Assembly (NCBI GenBank): GCA_021157815.1
Contig: JAGGVT010000045.1
Location: forward strand, 1-20,376
From: a bacterium
GTDB taxonomy: Bacteria > JAJVIF01 > JAGGVT01
Direction: 5' to 3'
Length of the DNA: 20,376 bases
The notes below the pieces were generated by a model that worked only from the letters and a program-made list of their open reading frames with translations, was not told the origin of the DNA and did no database searches. The translations under genes and the position numbers were made by a program. Shown here piece by piece: positions 9,793 to 20,376 of the stretch; the stretch's first letter is position 1; each line of letters opens with the position of its first letter.

Positions 9793-12700
9793 ATGAATCT
9801 ACGCAAAGCACTGAAAGACCGCATTATTCTAAAGGATGGCTCAATCGGAATCAGCCTCTCTAAAACCGATGCTGGAAAAAATGTTCCTTTCTATGAACTC
9901 CTGAACATCGAATCACCGCAAACAGTCCTTGAACTTCACAAAAACTACCTTTCTGTTTCAGCCGAAATTATCACCACAAATTCATTCTCTGCTCATCCGT
10001 ATTCATTAAGTGAATGGGGATTCGAGGAAAAAGCGTATGAAATAAATTTCGAAGCGGCAAATCTTGCGCGTAAAGCGGTGGATGAATCGAAACAAAACGC
10101 GTGGATTGCCGGTTCAATGGGCCCTACCGCCGCAAGCCTGACTCTGTTAAAGGATAAAATCGATTTTGATGAATTAAAAAATGGCTACAAACTGCAGGCA
10201 AAAGCGCTTATAGAGGGCGGAGCGGATTTCCTCCTGATTGAAACAATTCACGACCCTCTTAACGCCAAAGCTGCGTGGATTGCAATATTGGAACTAATCG
10301 ATGACGGCTTCAAAACCGATATCGCGCTTTCAATGACTGTCGAACTAACCGGAGTTTCACTAGCAGGCCAGTCAATAACATCGTTTGTAGTTTCAACAAA
10401 ACATCTTAATCCTCTCTACCTGGGACTTAACTGCTCACTTGGACCGCAGAGCCTTTTCAATCCTTTAACAGAGCTTGCAGAAAAAAGCCCGTTTCCTGTC
10501 GCGCTTGTGCCAAATGCCGGACTTCCCGATGAAAAGGGCAACTACACTCTCACACCTGAAATATTCGCAAGCCAGATGCGTGTATTCCTTGAAAAACAGC
10601 AGCTGAATGTAATTGGGGGATGCTGCGGAACGACGCATGAACATATTGAAATACTCGCTGGCATGATAAAGGATGCAAAACCTCGTCAATCGCGTGGCGA
10701 AGTAAACGGAATGATTGCAGGGCTTGATGCCGTTTTCCTTAAACAGGAACCCGCTCCGATGCTTGTTGGCGAGCGCGCGAACACTCTCGGAAGTAAAATA
10801 TTCAAAAAGCATGTGTCAGCCGGTAATGCTGATAAAATTATAGACGTTTTACGAAACCAATCCTTAAGCGGCGCGCATGCTCTCGATATCTGCTTTGCAT
10901 CAATCGAGCAGGATGAGATTCAGCTGTGGCAGACATACGCGCCAAAGTTTTCAGGTTTGGTTAAACAGCCTGTTTTTATCGACTCTGCACGCATTGACGT
11001 TATTCAAAACGTTTTAAAACTGATACCCGGAAAACCTGTAATTAATTCAGTCAATCTAGAGGATGGCGGTCAATACATAAGTGAAATTGCAAAACTGCTT
11101 CGATTTAATCCGCTCGCTGTTGTCGCCGGATTAATTGATGAAAACGGAATGGCTCGCACTTTCGATGAAAAACTTGCGATTGCTGAAAAACTTTTTAAAC
11201 TGCTTGTTGATAACGGATTCAATCACGATGAAATAATCATTGACCCGCTTGTATTCCCCCTCACAGCTGATATTAATCCGTACGAGAGCATTCGCGCGAT
11301 AACTGAATTAAAAAAGAAATATCCGCAATCACCAACGATTCTGGGAATCTCAAACGTATCATTCGGGCTTCCAAAGAAAACACGTTCGATTCTGAATTCC
11401 GTTTACCTTCAGCTCGCACTTGATGCCGGACTCGATATCGCTATCATCAACGTGAACGACCTCGCTCGCCAGGGAACGATAAACGAGGATGACCATAATC
11501 TTGCTGTAAATATACTCAAGGAATTCGATAAGAAATCGCTTCATGAACTGGTTGAGAAATATCGCGGCGTTAAAATTGAATCGCCTGTTGATAAACTTGA
11601 AAAGCTAAGTCTGGAGGAGAGGCTCATAACAAGAATTGTCACAGGGATTCGAGACGGCCTTGATTTTGATATGAAATCCATGCTTGAGTCGAAAGAACCG
11701 GTTGAAATTATTAATGAGTTACTAATGGCAGGCATGGATAGAGTAGGGGAGATGTTCGGCGACGGCAGTATGATTATTTCCGAGGTCCTTCTAAGCGCGG
11801 CGGTTTTCAAATCCGCAATGAACATCCTTGTTCCCAAAATTAAAAAGGAATCGCTTCCAAAAGCGGGGAAAGTGATTCTCGCGACTGTCAAAGGGGATGT
11901 TCACGACATCGGGCGCAATCTTGTTGGAATGATTCTTGAATCACACGGATTCGAGATAATCGATTTGGGAACCAAAGTTACACCGGAAGTAATCATTGAA
12001 GCGGTTAAGCGCGAAAAACCGATTGCTGTCGGCTTGTCGGGATTGCTTATACGCTCGGCATATATCATGCGTGAAACCGCCGAGGCGCTCACTCATGCGC
12101 AAATCGATGTTCCAATTGTAGTAGGCGGAGCAGCTCTAACCAGAGAATTCACAGCTGCTGAAATTGCTCCGGCATACCCGATGGGAAGTGTCAGATACGC
12201 TAATAACGCCATGGATGCTCTAAGTATTTTCAAGGATATAGCAAGTGGGATAATATCAACTGAAAAAGCAGTTGAATTAAAAAAAACGCCATCACTGGAA
12301 ATTACAAAATCATATCTTGTTGAGGAACCTGTAACTCCCCCCCAAGTGCCGGATTACATCACACATGTAATTAACCCCGCAATGGATGATCTTATCCCCC
12401 TCATTAACTGGAAAATGCTAATCCACAAGTTCATGGGAGCGAAACTTGTTAAAAAAGATGAGTCCAGAGCTCAGCTGGAGAAAGTTCTAAAAAAGATTAT
12501 AAGCAGGGACATTCTAAAACCGGCGGGTATCTTCAGGTTCGTTAATGCTATTTCACAGGATGACAACATAATACTTTCATCACAAACTGAATCAGAGATA
12601 ACAAAAATCTCGTTTACACGCTCAAAGGATGACATCTGCGCATCAGACTGGATTATTAATGATTCAGATATTTCCGATTCCGTTGCGATATTCGTTGTAA

Positions 12701-13038
12701 CATCAGGGGATATTAAAGAAGCGGCGAAAGAAGCCAGAATTGAAAACGATTTATTCTTTGCTTATGCAATTGAGGTATATTCGCTGGCGATTGTAGAGGC
12801 TGCGGCTGCCTGCACTCACGACATTATCCGCACGCTCTGGGGTTTGGATGATAAAACAAGGGGCGTACGCCTGTCGCCGGGATATTCCTGCTGCCCGGAT
12901 TTAGAAATTCAGAAAGATATCTTTAGTTTGCTAAAACCGGAATCTATAAATGTACGGCTTACTGATGAAATGATGATGGAACCTGAGGCTTCGATTTCAG
13001 CGATTGTATTTCACCATCCGGATGGGAGATACTATTAA
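9793..13038 (+). CDS. metH: Cobalamin-dependent methionine synthase
   Basis: Transfers a methyl group from methyl-tetrahydrofolate to homocysteine by way of cobalamin, in the cytoplasm. All four MetH modules are visible in 1081 residues. The homocysteine methyltransferase barrel (about 1-295) has zinc ligands Cys214 (GLNCSLGP) and Cys277/Cys278 (GGCCGTTHEH). The pterin-binding barrel (about 320-585) resembles the compact Thermotoga type (GISNVSFGLPKK). The B12 cap and Rossmann domain (about 600-825) has the cobalt ligand His704 in DVHDIG. A shortened activation domain (about 860-1081) keeps the AdoMet motif RLSPGY (1026-1031). Oddities: the N-terminal loop reads DGSIGISL instead of the usual DGAMGT, and the pterin motif usually read as LDxNxx is LDICFA (364-369), with Cys367 where Asn is expected. 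The stop overlaps the next start by one base (TAATG), so the two genes are coupled. Confidence 0.95.
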   Translation: MNLRKALKDRIILKDGSIGISLSKTDAGKNVPFYELLNIESPQTVLELHKNYLSVSAEIITTNSFSAHPYSLSEWGFEEKAYEINFEAANLARKAVDESKQNAWIAGSMGPTAASLTLLKDKIDFDELKNGYKLQAKALIEGGADFLLIETIHDPLNAKAAWIAILELIDDGFKTDIALSMTVELTGVSLAGQSITSFVVSTKHLNPLYLGLNCSLGPQSLFNPLTELAEKSPFPVALVPNAGLPDEKGNYTLTPEIFASQMRVFLEKQQLNVIGGCCGTTHEHIEILAGMIKDAKPRQSRGEVNGMIAGLDAVFLKQEPAPMLVGERANTLGSKIFKKHVSAGNADKIIDVLRNQSLSGAHALDICFASIEQDEIQLWQTYAPKFSGLVKQPVFIDSARIDVIQNVLKLIPGKPVINSVNLEDGGQYISEIAKLLRFNPLAVVAGLIDENGMARTFDEKLAIAEKLFKLLVDNGFNHDEIIIDPLVFPLTADINPYESIRAITELKKKYPQSPTILGISNVSFGLPKKTRSILNSVYLQLALDAGLDIAIINVNDLARQGTINEDDHNLAVNILKEFDKKSLHELVEKYRGVKIESPVDKLEKLSLEERLITRIVTGIRDGLDFDMKSMLESKEPVEIINELLMAGMDRVGEMFGDGSMIISEVLLSAAVFKSAMNILVPKIKKESLPKAGKVILATVKGDVHDIGRNLVGMILESHGFEIIDLGTKVTPEVIIEAVKREKPIAVGLSGLLIRSAYIMRETAEALTHAQIDVPIVVGGAALTREFTAAEIAPAYPMGSVRYANNAMDALSIFKDIASGIISTEKAVELKKTPSLEITKSYLVEEPVTPPQVPDYITHVINPAMDDLIPLINWKMLIHKFMGAKLVKKDESRAQLEKVLKKIISRDILKPAGIFRFVNAISQDDNIILSSQTESEITKISFTRSKDDICASDWIINDSDISDSVAIFVVTSGDIKEAAKEARIENDLFFAYAIEVYSLAIVEAAAACTHDIIRTLWGLDDKTRGVRLSPGYSCCPDLEIQKDIFSLLKPESINVRLTDEMMMEPEASISAIVFHHPDGRYY

Positions 13039-14849
13039 TGCCAACACTGCAGGAACTTGCCGATAAAAGGATTATTGTTGGTGACGGAGCGACTGGAACG
13101 GTTCTTCATAACAGGCTTCCCAAAGGTGCGTCAATTGACCTTGCGGTTATAGAACATCCAGAAGAACTCCTAAAACTGTATATTGAATATATCAAAGCAG
13201 GCTCGATGGTCATCCAGACTCACACGTTCGGAACATCAAAATCGAAACTTGACCGGAAAAACGCGCTGGATTTGTTTGAGGAGATTAACAGCAAAGCTGT
13301 TAAAATCGCGCGTGAGGCAAGGGATGTCGCCGGAAATGATGTTCTTATCGCCGGTTCGATTGGCCCATCATTCAGGATTTCAGATAAGGAATACGAAATA
13401 AAATGCGAAAACTATGGTGAACAGGCTGTAATCCTTGAGGAGCGCGGCTGCGATTTCTTCCTACTAGAAACATTTTCTTCGATAGATGAATTATCATGCG
13501 CGATTCGGGCAATAAAGAATATTTCATCCCTTCCAATTGTGGCTCAATTAACCATTTCGGATGAGTGGTCGCCAACGCCGGAGGGTTCTCGAAAATACAT
13601 ACTGGATGATCTTCTAAAACTGCCTGTTTTGTTCGTCGGAATAAACTGCGGAGCGGGTCCGGATGAATATCTGGAAATCCTGGAGGAGTGGGGCGCTGTC
13701 GATGAACATTACATTGTCGTTCAGCCAAACGCCGGAGTTCCTGTACGCAGGGATGGGCGTTTTATCTATCCATCAGCTACTCCGGAGTACTTTGAATATT
13801 TCGCAAAACTGGCGGCAAGCCATGGAGTCAAGTATATCGGTGGATGCTGCGGAACAACTCCCGACCATATAAAGGCGATAGCGAAAGCTGTTAAGAACAT
13901 TTCACCAAAGGAATCAAAACGAGTTATCGAGGTTGTACCACCGATTGAAAGAGAGGAAGAGGTTGTACATGCTGAATCCGGATTTCTGGATATGATCGAG
14001 AGCGGCAAATTTACAGTTATCGTTCAGCTCGACCCGCCAAAAGGAACAAATGTTCAAAACCTGCTTGATTTATCACGGCAGATAAAAGCGAATCCAAAAA
14101 TATGCGCGGTTGATATTAATGCGAATCCTCTCGGACGATTGCATTTCGATTCACTCTGGCTTGCAGGTATTATTGAGCAGGAGGTGGGCATTGATACAAT
14201 TCCCCATATTACTCCTCGCGATGCGTCCCTGATGGGGCTTGAAGCACAGTTGTTGGGCGCATGGTATTCAGGTGTACAAAACCTGCTGATTATCACCGGC
14301 GACCCGTCACAGAAAGGGGATTATCCCGGTGCGTCAGATGTTTACCAAACCGACAGTGTGGGTTTGGTCAAAACAATCAACCGGTTAAACCACGCGAAAG
14401 ACTGGGGCGGAAACAGAGTAGGGGACCCGCCATCGTTTGTATTGGGTGTTGCCATAAACCCCGGAGCTGATGACAGAAAAAGGGAAATCGAGAAATTCAA
14501 GCAGAAAATAGATGCCGGCGCGAAATTCGTGATGTCTCAGGTGTTTTTCTCCTGGGATGTTTGGGAATCATTCTGGACTGACTACGGCGAGGAATCTCCC
14601 ATTCCTGTCCTTGTAGGAATATGGCCTCTAACCAGCCTAAGGCTGGCGTTGAGAATCCACAACGAGATTCCGGGAATCAATATCCATAATTCAGTTTTAA
14701 AAAAACTTGAGGATGCCGGTTCATCCGCGCGTGAGGCAGGCTGGGAAATTGCAAAAGAAATCTACAATCAATCCCCGAAATACGCCAGCGGTGTTTATCT
14801 AATCGCGCCATATAAAAGAGGGGAAACTATTCTCCACCTTGTCGATTGA
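13038..14849 (+). CDS. Bifunctional homocysteine S-methyltransferase / methylenetetrahydrofolate reductase
   Basis: A 603-residue YitJ-type fusion. Residues 1-290 are a homocysteine methyltransferase barrel with an ordinary DGATGT loop and zinc ligands Cys204 (GINCGAGP) and Cys270/Cys271 (GGCCGTTPDH). Residues about 322-603 are a flavin-dependent methylenetetrahydrofolate reductase, recognised by IPHITPRD, ITGDPSQKGDYPGASDVY and the closing SGVYLIAPY. It would make methyl-THF for MetH, whose gene is directly upstream and overlaps. In Bacillus YitJ, as I recall it, the first strand reads VELDPP; here it is VQLDPP, placing Gln330 at the position of the catalytic Glu28 of E. coli MetF. Replacement of that Glu by Gln in E. 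coli is reported to abolish methylene-THF reduction. A usual QPVF motif also reads QVFF. The reductase half may therefore be weak, reprogrammed or inactive. Confidence 0.92.
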   Translation: MPTLQELADKRIIVGDGATGTVLHNRLPKGASIDLAVIEHPEELLKLYIEYIKAGSMVIQTHTFGTSKSKLDRKNALDLFEEINSKAVKIAREARDVAGNDVLIAGSIGPSFRISDKEYEIKCENYGEQAVILEERGCDFFLLETFSSIDELSCAIRAIKNISSLPIVAQLTISDEWSPTPEGSRKYILDDLLKLPVLFVGINCGAGPDEYLEILEEWGAVDEHYIVVQPNAGVPVRRDGRFIYPSATPEYFEYFAKLAASHGVKYIGGCCGTTPDHIKAIAKAVKNISPKESKRVIEVVPPIEREEEVVHAESGFLDMIESGKFTVIVQLDPPKGTNVQNLLDLSRQIKANPKICAVDINANPLGRLHFDSLWLAGIIEQEVGIDTIPHITPRDASLMGLEAQLLGAWYSGVQNLLIITGDPSQKGDYPGASDVYQTDSVGLVKTINRLNHAKDWGGNRVGDPPSFVLGVAINPGADDRKREIEKFKQKIDAGAKFVMSQVFFSWDVWESFWTDYGEESPIPVLVGIWPLTSLRLALRIHNEIPGINIHNSVLKKLEDAGSSAREAGWEIAKEIYNQSPKYASGVYLIAPYKRGETILHLVD

Positions 14850-18057: not shown

Positions 18058-18084
18058 ACTGTCGTAGGAGCACTGCTTGGAAAG

Positions 18085-18248
18085 TGTCTCAGAACCTGTC
18101 TTTTTCTGTCATTCTGAACGAAGTGAAGAATCTATTCTCGACAGTGCGGATTAATTTCGTCTGGATTAATCATCAACACAGCAACTTATAGATTCTTCGC
18201 TGCGCTCAGAATGACAATGTTTCGAGCATAATTCTATGTTCTGAGACA
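18085..18248. repeat. Nested inverted repeat with a CATTCTGAACG-type core
   Basis: Outer arms TGTCTCAGAAC (18085-18095) and GTTCTGAGACA (18238-18248) are exact inverses. Inner arms at 18107-18135 and 18188-18216 are inverse copies of about 28 bases with few mismatches (core GTCATTCTGAACGAAGTGAA). The inner motif resembles a palindrome common between genes in many bacteria. It lies between divergent genes, upstream of rpoN. Bases 18249-18373 hold nothing else I can support. Confidence 0.85.
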
Positions 18249-18373
18249 TCTTCCTTTCTACGCCCCTGCACATAATAGTATATACGCATCTCCTTGTTTT
18301 AGTCAGTATATCAAATACTGGATAATTTGTATCCTGAGATTGCTTCTTTATCGTAAATTTAAACAATTAGGAG

Positions 18374-18424: not shown

Positions 18425-19972
18425 ATGGGAATGAGGATTGAACATAGGCTCCAGCCAAAACTGAGCCAGGAATTGAAGGTCACCCCGCAGATGATCCTCA
18501 TTAACCGTATCCTCCAACTCCAAAGACTGGACCTTCATCAGGAAGTCGAATTGCATCTAAGGGAGAATCCCGCACTGGAACTGGTCGAGGAAATCCGATG
18601 CCCCAGATGCGGCGAGCCTCTTTCAGAGGGCGGCATATGCAGGATTTGTGAATCGAATATCGAATATAAAAATCAGGATGCCTATGAATTCAAAAAGCGC
18701 GGCTTTGATGATCTCGTTTCAAACTGGGATTCAGGCCATTACGAGGATGCGACCACGTATGAGAGAAAATCACCTGAGGATGAATTCGATCCCATAAGCA
18801 ATACACCCGCGGTTGTAAATATACATGCCGAAATCAGGCGTAATTTCCTGATTAGCTATAATGGCTTAACAGAACTGGAAATATCAACTGCGGAATACAT
18901 GGTTGACCTGATTGACGATAAGGGATTGATTGATGTATCTGATAACGATATCGCCGAAGAGATTGGCGTATTGGTTGATGTTGTCGAATCCGCCCGAGAC
19001 CGCATAATGCACCTTGACCCGATAGGCCTTGGTGCGCAGAATCCAAATCAGGCTATGATTGTCCAGATTGAAATGCTTGCACAGACGATGAAGCGCAATC
19101 TTGACCTGGAAAAACTGATTGTTCTCAAATACAGGGATATGCTGGCTAGAGAAAAACTCGAGGAGATTGCACAGGGGACACAGCATGATATAAGCAAGGT
19201 GCAGGAGGCGTGCGATTTTATCCGTGAAAAACTATACGCGTACCCAGGCGATTTCCTCGAAAAACAATCCACGCGTGAATATGATCCTGATTTTTATCCT
19301 GTAGCCGATGTTATCTTTCGTGAAGTTGATGGTGAATATTATCCTGAGATAGTTGATGGTGGCATGCCTCATTTCAGGATTTCCGCTTTTTACCTCGATG
19401 CATACAACAAAATTAAAGCCGGAAACGCGAAAAATTTCACGGAAGAAGAAAAGAAGCATATCAGAAACTACTTTGAAAGGGCGAAATTCTTTCTCGACTG
19501 CATTAATCAGCGCCGTGAAACAATAACCCGAATATGCAATTTTCTTATCAAGTATCAGAAGGACTTCCTAAAGCGCGGTATCAGAAAGCTAAAGGACCTT
19601 ACACGGGAAAAAGTGGCGGAGGAAATAGGCTTTCATCCATCGACTATTTCACGCGCGTTGAAGGGCAAGTATGTTCAACTGCCGGACAGGTCGATTAAAT
19701 CGTTCAGCATTTTCTTCGACTACCAGAAGGTACTGATTCTTGTTATCAAAGAGATACTTGAAAGTGAGGAGACTCCTCTTAAAGCCTTGTCCGATGATGA
19801 TATCGCGATGCGGATGAAGGAACTCGGTTTTAGTGTCGCTAGAAGAACTGTCGCTAAATACAGGGAACGAGGTAAAATCCCACCAAAGAACATTCGCAAG
19901 CGTAGATTAATCAGGAAATGGAAAAAAGAGGGAATTCCCTTTAATAAACCAGATGATGACAATGAATTATAA
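18425..19972 (+). CDS. rpoN: RNA polymerase sigma-54 factor with inserted zinc ribbon
   Basis: Sigma-54, 515 residues, which directs RNA polymerase to -24/-12 promoters that need an ATP-using activator. Region I is present (about 5-55: LSQELKVTPQMIL, LQRLDL, LRENPALEL). The core-binding domain follows (about 130-310), then a helix-turn-helix (VAEEIGFHPSTISRALKGKYVQ), and an exact RpoN box ARRTVAKYRE (472-481). Directly after region I is CPRCG...CRIC, with Cys59, Cys62, Cys72 and Cys75 spaced as a zinc ribbon, in the acidic region II that is normally variable and metal-free. The protein also runs about 34 residues past the RpoN box with a basic patch and an acidic end, longer than usual. The gene is monocistronic. 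None of the usual neighbours (lptB, hpf, ptsN) follows within the 400 bases in view. Confidence 0.96.
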   Translation: MGMRIEHRLQPKLSQELKVTPQMILINRILQLQRLDLHQEVELHLRENPALELVEEIRCPRCGEPLSEGGICRICESNIEYKNQDAYEFKKRGFDDLVSNWDSGHYEDATTYERKSPEDEFDPISNTPAVVNIHAEIRRNFLISYNGLTELEISTAEYMVDLIDDKGLIDVSDNDIAEEIGVLVDVVESARDRIMHLDPIGLGAQNPNQAMIVQIEMLAQTMKRNLDLEKLIVLKYRDMLAREKLEEIAQGTQHDISKVQEACDFIREKLYAYPGDFLEKQSTREYDPDFYPVADVIFREVDGEYYPEIVDGGMPHFRISAFYLDAYNKIKAGNAKNFTEEEKKHIRNYFERAKFFLDCINQRRETITRICNFLIKYQKDFLKRGIRKLKDLTREKVAEEIGFHPSTISRALKGKYVQLPDRSIKSFSIFFDYQKVLILVIKEILESEETPLKALSDDDIAMRMKELGFSVARRTVAKYRERGKIPPKNIRKRRLIRKWKKEGIPFNKPDDDNEL

Positions 19973-20376
19973 ATTCGATAAGTAATTAAGTGATGGCTAT
20001 TCAATAAATTGACTGGGTTAAGTATGGTGAAAAGTTTGGATTGAGTAAAAAAGGGGAATGTCCCAACAACGTTTATAAATATGATAAACAGTGGGATTTA
20101 CTACTGTCCGGTTAAATTTGAAGATAAGTAAAAATATAAGAATACTCCATGATGGTAGTAAAAAGGAGACTGTCCCAACAAAGCAAATAAACTCAGTATA
20201 AATGCGGGTTCGCGGTGTAGTTTATTGATAACGTAAGATTTGAAGCCTTATGTGGACGTACCCCATTATTGGGGAATGCTCCTTTTTGCGGATAGAACGA
20301 TTCGGTATTCACCCTAAATCCGCGATGGGATATTTTCGTATCACCTACGGCTCGCAGGTTATGTGGGAAGCTCTCG
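19973..20376. other. Gene-free end with repeat motifs
   Basis: No supported gene. AAAAAAGGGGAATGTCCCAA (from 20047) and AAAAAGGAGACTGTCCCAAC (from 20160) are direct near-copies 113 bases apart. A diverged inverse (GGGGAATGCTCCTTTTT, 20271-20287) follows a small CCCCA/TGGGG hairpin at 20261-20274. Such GGGGAxTGTCCC motifs resemble REP-like sequences or ends of small mobile elements. The last 85 bases may belong to a feature continuing to the right. Confidence 0.5.

Follow-up and report, generated by a model that had tools for sequence, protein, structure and literature searches.

Introduction

Mechanistic work on sigma-54 has used proteins of the E. coli/Klebsiella type, which carry no zinc ribbon. 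In complexes of the E. coli type the N-terminus of the sigma factor passes through the melted DNA and is drawn into the pore of the activator hexamer, and ATP hydrolysis by the activator unfolds the first helix of region I, in part only; how this pulling is regulated and how it ends are stated to be unknown (PMC9770992, PMC12054792). Structures of the open and initial transcribing complexes leave some 110 residues, namely region I and the first part of region II, unresolved and flexible, and they show region II entering the polymerase on the beta side (PMC10786286). Published descriptions present region II of sigma-54 as variable, and the RpoN of Rhodobacter capsulatus, which is cited in PMC10786286 for its short region II, shows that this region is free to vary, although there it is shortened and has no added fold.

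A zinc ribbon that is functionally tied to sigma-54 has been described in Helicobacter pylori, where the zinc-ribbon protein FlgZ (HP0958, DUF164, PF02591) is required for RpoN accumulation and prevents RpoN turnover (PMC3372290). Like the sigma-54 studied here, FlgZ has two CxxC pairs, but it is a separate protein acting in trans, and its pairs are spaced CxxC-x18-26-CxxC whereas the spacing is 9 in our protein, which PF02591 does not match at E <= 1 in a Pfam search. The small structural zinc ribbons of Nop10, bL32, RecR and Spt4 and the Pfam models DZR and Zn_ribbon share with it the CPxCG-type knuckles and a similar spacing and give weak sequence matches, but at E values of 0.006 to 1 this is similarity of motif, and homology is not shown. 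The earlier note on this DNA knew of no characterised sigma-54 with such an element, and we likewise found no description of a zinc ribbon inside a sigma-54 in the open-access literature, outside which a report may exist.

Results

The rpoN gene of the window

The window, that is the whole stretch of 20,376 nucleotides analysed here, carries a gene (Table 1) whose product shares with the classical sigma-54 of E. coli, Klebsiella and Aquifex region I, the core-binding and DNA-binding domains, the RpoN box and the order of these parts. The open reading frame, with a translation that includes ...ENPALELVEEIRCPRCGEPLSEGGICRICESN... and an alternative start at the ATG at 18431, encodes a complete sigma-54. 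The three Pfam domains follow in order, each above its gathering score, solved sigma-54 chains align over residues 2-493 with 141 bits, and a fold search with a full-length model of the protein also led to sigma-54. The NCBIfam equivalog TIGR02395 matches over its full length (1-434) with 245.7 bits against a cut-off of 277.35, which is a naming threshold and not a functional feature, indicating that the protein is a diverged member of the family. One RpoN was found in the genome, together with seven strong PF00158 (AAA+ activator) matches having the loops GAFTGA, GAFTDA or GSFTGA. With all domains present, a sole RpoN and seven activators, the protein looks by its sequence features like a functional sigma-54 in a genome equipped for its use.

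Table 1. Features of the sigma-54 gene and its product, in positions of the window.
Feature	Position	Strand	Evidence
rpoN, sigma-54 with predicted zinc ribbon	18425..19972	+	515 aa ORF; Pfam domains; nearest solved folds are sigma-54 chains
Region I / activator-interacting domain (AID), residues 8-53, NPALE at its end	18446..18583	+	PF00309, 38.5 bits, E 1e-09
Zinc ribbon (predicted), Cys59-Pro-Arg-Cys62-Gly ... Cys72-Arg-Ile-Cys75	18599..18649	+	translation; weak Pfam zinc-ribbon matches; four-Cys conservation
Acidic P-E-D-E-F-D-P stretch, residues 117-123	18773..18793	+	lies, in the alignment with solved chains, close to the region II finger (residues 104-112) of classical sigma-54
Core-binding domain (CBD), residues 146-323	18860..19393	+	PF04963, 88.7 bits, E 5.1e-25
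DNA-binding domain (DBD), residues 344-493	19454..19903	+	PF04552, 113 bits, E 1.5e-32
RpoN box ARRTVAKYRE, residues 472-481	19838-19867	+	read in translation; intact

Upstream of rpoN, at 18079-18254 of the window, a 29-nt inverted repeat (90%: TGTCATTCTGAACGAAGTGAAGAATCTAT) is nested in a second one of 17 nt, and together they look like a REP- or MITE-type palindrome. Downstream, at 20048-20287, a 32-nt sequence occurs twice in direct orientation (81%, ...TGTCCCAACAA...), together with an inverted arm. At 9793-14849 a MetH-type methionine synthase is followed by a gene in which methylenetetrahydrofolate reductase is fused with a second homocysteine S-methyltransferase domain.

Position of the four cysteines

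Directly after region I the protein shows the motif CPRC-x9-CRIC, with the codons of Cys59, Cys62, Cys72 and Cys75 starting at 18599, 18608, 18638 and 18647; the span 18599-18652 given in the earlier note corresponds to residues 59-76. The placing of the four cysteines between region I and the core-binding domain, as claimed there, is borne out by the Pfam boundaries. The same note had put the ribbon where classical sigma-54 has an acidic linker, and this holds for the N-terminal part of that linker; replacement of the entire linker was dropped, since the acidic DEFDP stretch is still present ahead of the core-binding domain. The aspartate and proline of this stretch are conserved in 73-80% of the ribbon rows of the alignment, and by its place in the alignment the stretch is probably equivalent to the classical region II finger. 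The predicted ribbon thus takes the place of the N-terminal part of region II.

The spacing from NPxLE to the first cysteine is 5 or 6 residues in 46 of the 49 ribbon rows, and the loop from the second to the third cysteine, 9 in the protein of the window, is 8 in 46 of 49; in a larger sequence set the loops run from 7 to 10 and the NPxLE spacers up to 9, two mis-anchored matches aside. From the last cysteine to the acidic motif, where this motif was found, there are 19 to 42 residues in the ribbon rows. A near-constant spacing to region I followed by a variable linker indicates that the ribbon keeps its place with respect to region I and not to the core-binding domain. Between the cysteines conservation is poor except for the proline and the glycine.

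Evidence for a probable zinc site

Knuckles of the CPxCG kind with short loops usually point to structural zinc. The Pfam zinc-ribbon models DZR and Zn_ribbon match residues 52-77 weakly, with E values of 0.006 to 0.013 that are not proof alone. In an AlphaFold model from the single sequence, residues 61-80 belong to the blocks with the best scores (pLDDT 75-76), and single bridge residues at 58, 65, 71 and 78 give the pattern expected of a ribbon; with a few ribbon-less relatives in the alignment the pLDDT of the block went down to about 50. When a profile of the ribbon branch (A6) was compared with solved structures, the match to sigma-54 ended at profile position 52-53, before the first cysteine, and the ribbon part gave weak matches to the known zinc ribbons of Nop10, bL32, RecR and Spt4; this search of solved structures found no sigma-54 with the ribbon element. 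The metal site proposed in the earlier note is strongly supported by an all-or-none conservation over several phyla, and zinc as the metal is predicted from the sequence. The four cysteines very likely hold one structural zinc ion, Zn(Cys)4, and would so form a small rigid knob.

Distribution of the ribbon

Direct reading found the same four cysteines at the same place in some 115 sigma-54 sequences, drawn from about 100 genomes, 42 families and at least five phylum-level groups, and 50 further sigma-54 sequences have zero cysteines in the linker. With a single altered copy seen, the pattern over these roughly 165 sequences is all or none. In the alignment of 96 sequences the four columns are cysteine in 49 of 49 ribbon rows and 0 of 47 others, where the ribbon rows were picked by the four-cysteine pattern and the informative part of the count is the absence of partial cases.

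The phylum of the window is represented by four genomes in the search set. Conservation in close relatives, on which the earlier note had made its claim depend, held with one exception: within the class of the window two relatives (G002 and G003) keep all four cysteines, and a third (G001) has lost all four, its linker being charged and free of cysteine. In a second phylum (G018, G059 and G060) CPNC-x8-CEHC is found at the same place. A survey with a profile of the N-terminus against 385 genomes over the Bacteria, with phylum-level searches and a repeat with a broader profile, added three phyla, namely those of G124/G260, of G222 and the large one of G334, and the pair G146/G282 was also found to bear the ribbon. 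All 7 genomes of the G124/G260 phylum match the ribbon profile. In the G334 phylum RpoN is above the cut-off in 101 of 301 genomes and the ribbon N-terminal profile matches 96; of the copies read directly almost every one has the ribbon, the exceptions being G513, with none, and one altered copy in G468. This altered copy (L385) is a second ribbon-type paralogue, in which CPIC is followed past a longer loop by CDC; its ribbon may be decaying or have changed its spacing. Several genomes have two or three ribbon-type paralogues each, such as L052/L099 in G222, L054/L098 in G350 and L126 and L360 in G511, and the paralogues of one genome are sometimes in separate subgroups of the tree.

A single-protein query of genome contigs gave one match, a ribbon-less protein of Tissierellia. 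Among plasmid records only distant matches were obtained, the best 20 listed being all from Proteobacteria, and a search of viral contigs for the ribbon pattern gave 170 stretches with no RpoN among those examined. About twenty IMG/VR contigs (L133-L156) encode sigma-54-like proteins, about 435 aa long, that have an NPCVE...EEEI linker in common, as if some phages encoded a sigma-54 of their own.

No common partner gene was found beside the ribbon-type rpoN, the neighbours differing among the loci examined. In G018 (L406:5094-10297) the ribbon-type rpoN overlaps the gene of a REC-AAA+ (NtrC-type) activator by 4 bp, and a GAF/PAS histidine kinase adjoins the activator gene upstream, so that sigma factor, activator and sensor are apparently in one operon.

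Phylogeny of the ribbon branch

Trees were built without the motif columns, and the tree of 96 sequences used only the core-binding and DNA-binding columns. In this tree the 49 ribbon rows and 8 ribbon-less rows form one supported group apart from the 39 classical rows, and four changes suffice for the ribbon against 32 in shuffles. A slower tree with more lineages and 88 rows requires five changes against 30 in shuffles. At one node of it the G146/G282 pair joins the classical group of 35 rows and the main ribbon group, which has 51 rows and support 93/92. The solved classical chains, which have no ribbon, thus differ from the sigma-54 of the window also in belonging to a separate branch of the tree; the latter is a member of a distinct and apparently undescribed branch of the family, with CxxC-x(8-10)-CxxC located 5-9 residues past region I.

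One gain and about four losses account best for the history of the ribbon, the ribbon-less lineages within the branch that are read as losses being G001, G007/G157, family f263 and G513. Depending on the root of the sigma-54 tree, the ribbon may instead be ancestral and have been lost in the classical branch. The four loss lineages keep an apparently intact sigma-54, indicating that the ribbon is not indispensable.

Discussion

By its position right after region I the ribbon would lie in the first part of region II. The reading we prefer, tentatively and at somewhat less than an even chance, is that sigma-54 of the ribbon branch has a structural zinc knob working with region I when the activator drives promoter opening. 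Locked by zinc at the point where region I ends, the knob would delimit the segment that can be extracted, and it would act as a mechanical stop for activator threading, as an anchor on the polymerase beside the cleft, or as both, with the outcome that region I is freed and region II held in place. The link to the activator step is proposed from position alone. Among the roles suggested in the earlier note, contact with the activator or the polymerase is thus the one we favour, and such a contact is possible. The bolder form, in which the knob is a hard stop that limits threading and unfolding by the AAA+ activator in a major undescribed branch of sigma-54, is doubtful. Against the preferred mechanism stand the ordinary look of the activators in the genome of the window, the partial unfolding that classical sigma-54 achieves without a ribbon, and the persistence of sigma-54 in the loss lineages.

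The best rival, which we hold to be fairly unlikely, is by analogy to FlgZ that the ribbon is a built-in stabiliser, which would shield sigma-54 from proteolysis or aid it in the competition for core polymerase, as a DUF164 function in cis. Cysteine mutants of the FlgZ zinc ribbon lower RpoN levels in H. pylori (PMC3372290), and in our sample DUF164 is present in 25 of 26 genomes with classical sigma-54 against 17 of 34 ribbon genomes; no DUF164 was found in the genome of the window. This contrast may however be an effect of lineage, since independent pairs on the tree show no association, although these are 3 to 5 pairs and too few to inform. Half of the ribbon genomes carry both ribbon and DUF164, G001, G007, G157 and G513 have neither, and both the spacing of DUF164 (PMC3372290) and the lack of a PF02591 match set it apart from the ribbon. 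The idea that the ribbon displaced FlgZ/DUF164 as a partner, with striking raw counts and no support from the independent pairs, was therefore set aside and kept as a lead.

Binding to nucleic acid or protein is common among zinc ribbons, and the ribbon might be where promoter DNA, core polymerase or a partner specific to the lineage docks, in a role separate from the activator step. This is unlikely in our view: the predicted location, at the entry of region II into the polymerase cleft (PMC10786286), would suit such a role, but the poor conservation between the cysteines argues against a sequence-specific contact common to all. Four-cysteine zinc sites are oxidised or demetallated in some regulators, and the earlier note had considered a response to redox state or zinc, in which the thiols would raise or lower sigma-54 activity with zinc supply or oxidants. 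We regard such a switch as improbable; nothing in the analysis supports it, no common metal or redox gene stands beside rpoN in the few loci examined, and the structural type of the knuckles and loops also speaks against it. That the cysteines arose by chance in a fast-evolving linker and form no metal site, as their absence from G001 of the same class might suggest, has hardly any probability left and is in practice refuted by the all-or-none conservation in about 165 sequences and the clustering on the tree.

In a branch spanning several phyla, the extra element sits exactly at the junction between the segment that is pulled by the activator and the segment that blocks the polymerase cleft. 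The ribbon is therefore a natural handle on how the unfolding of region I ends and on the role of the disordered start of region II, and the lineages that have lost it, such as G001 in the class of the window, are ready-made comparisons.
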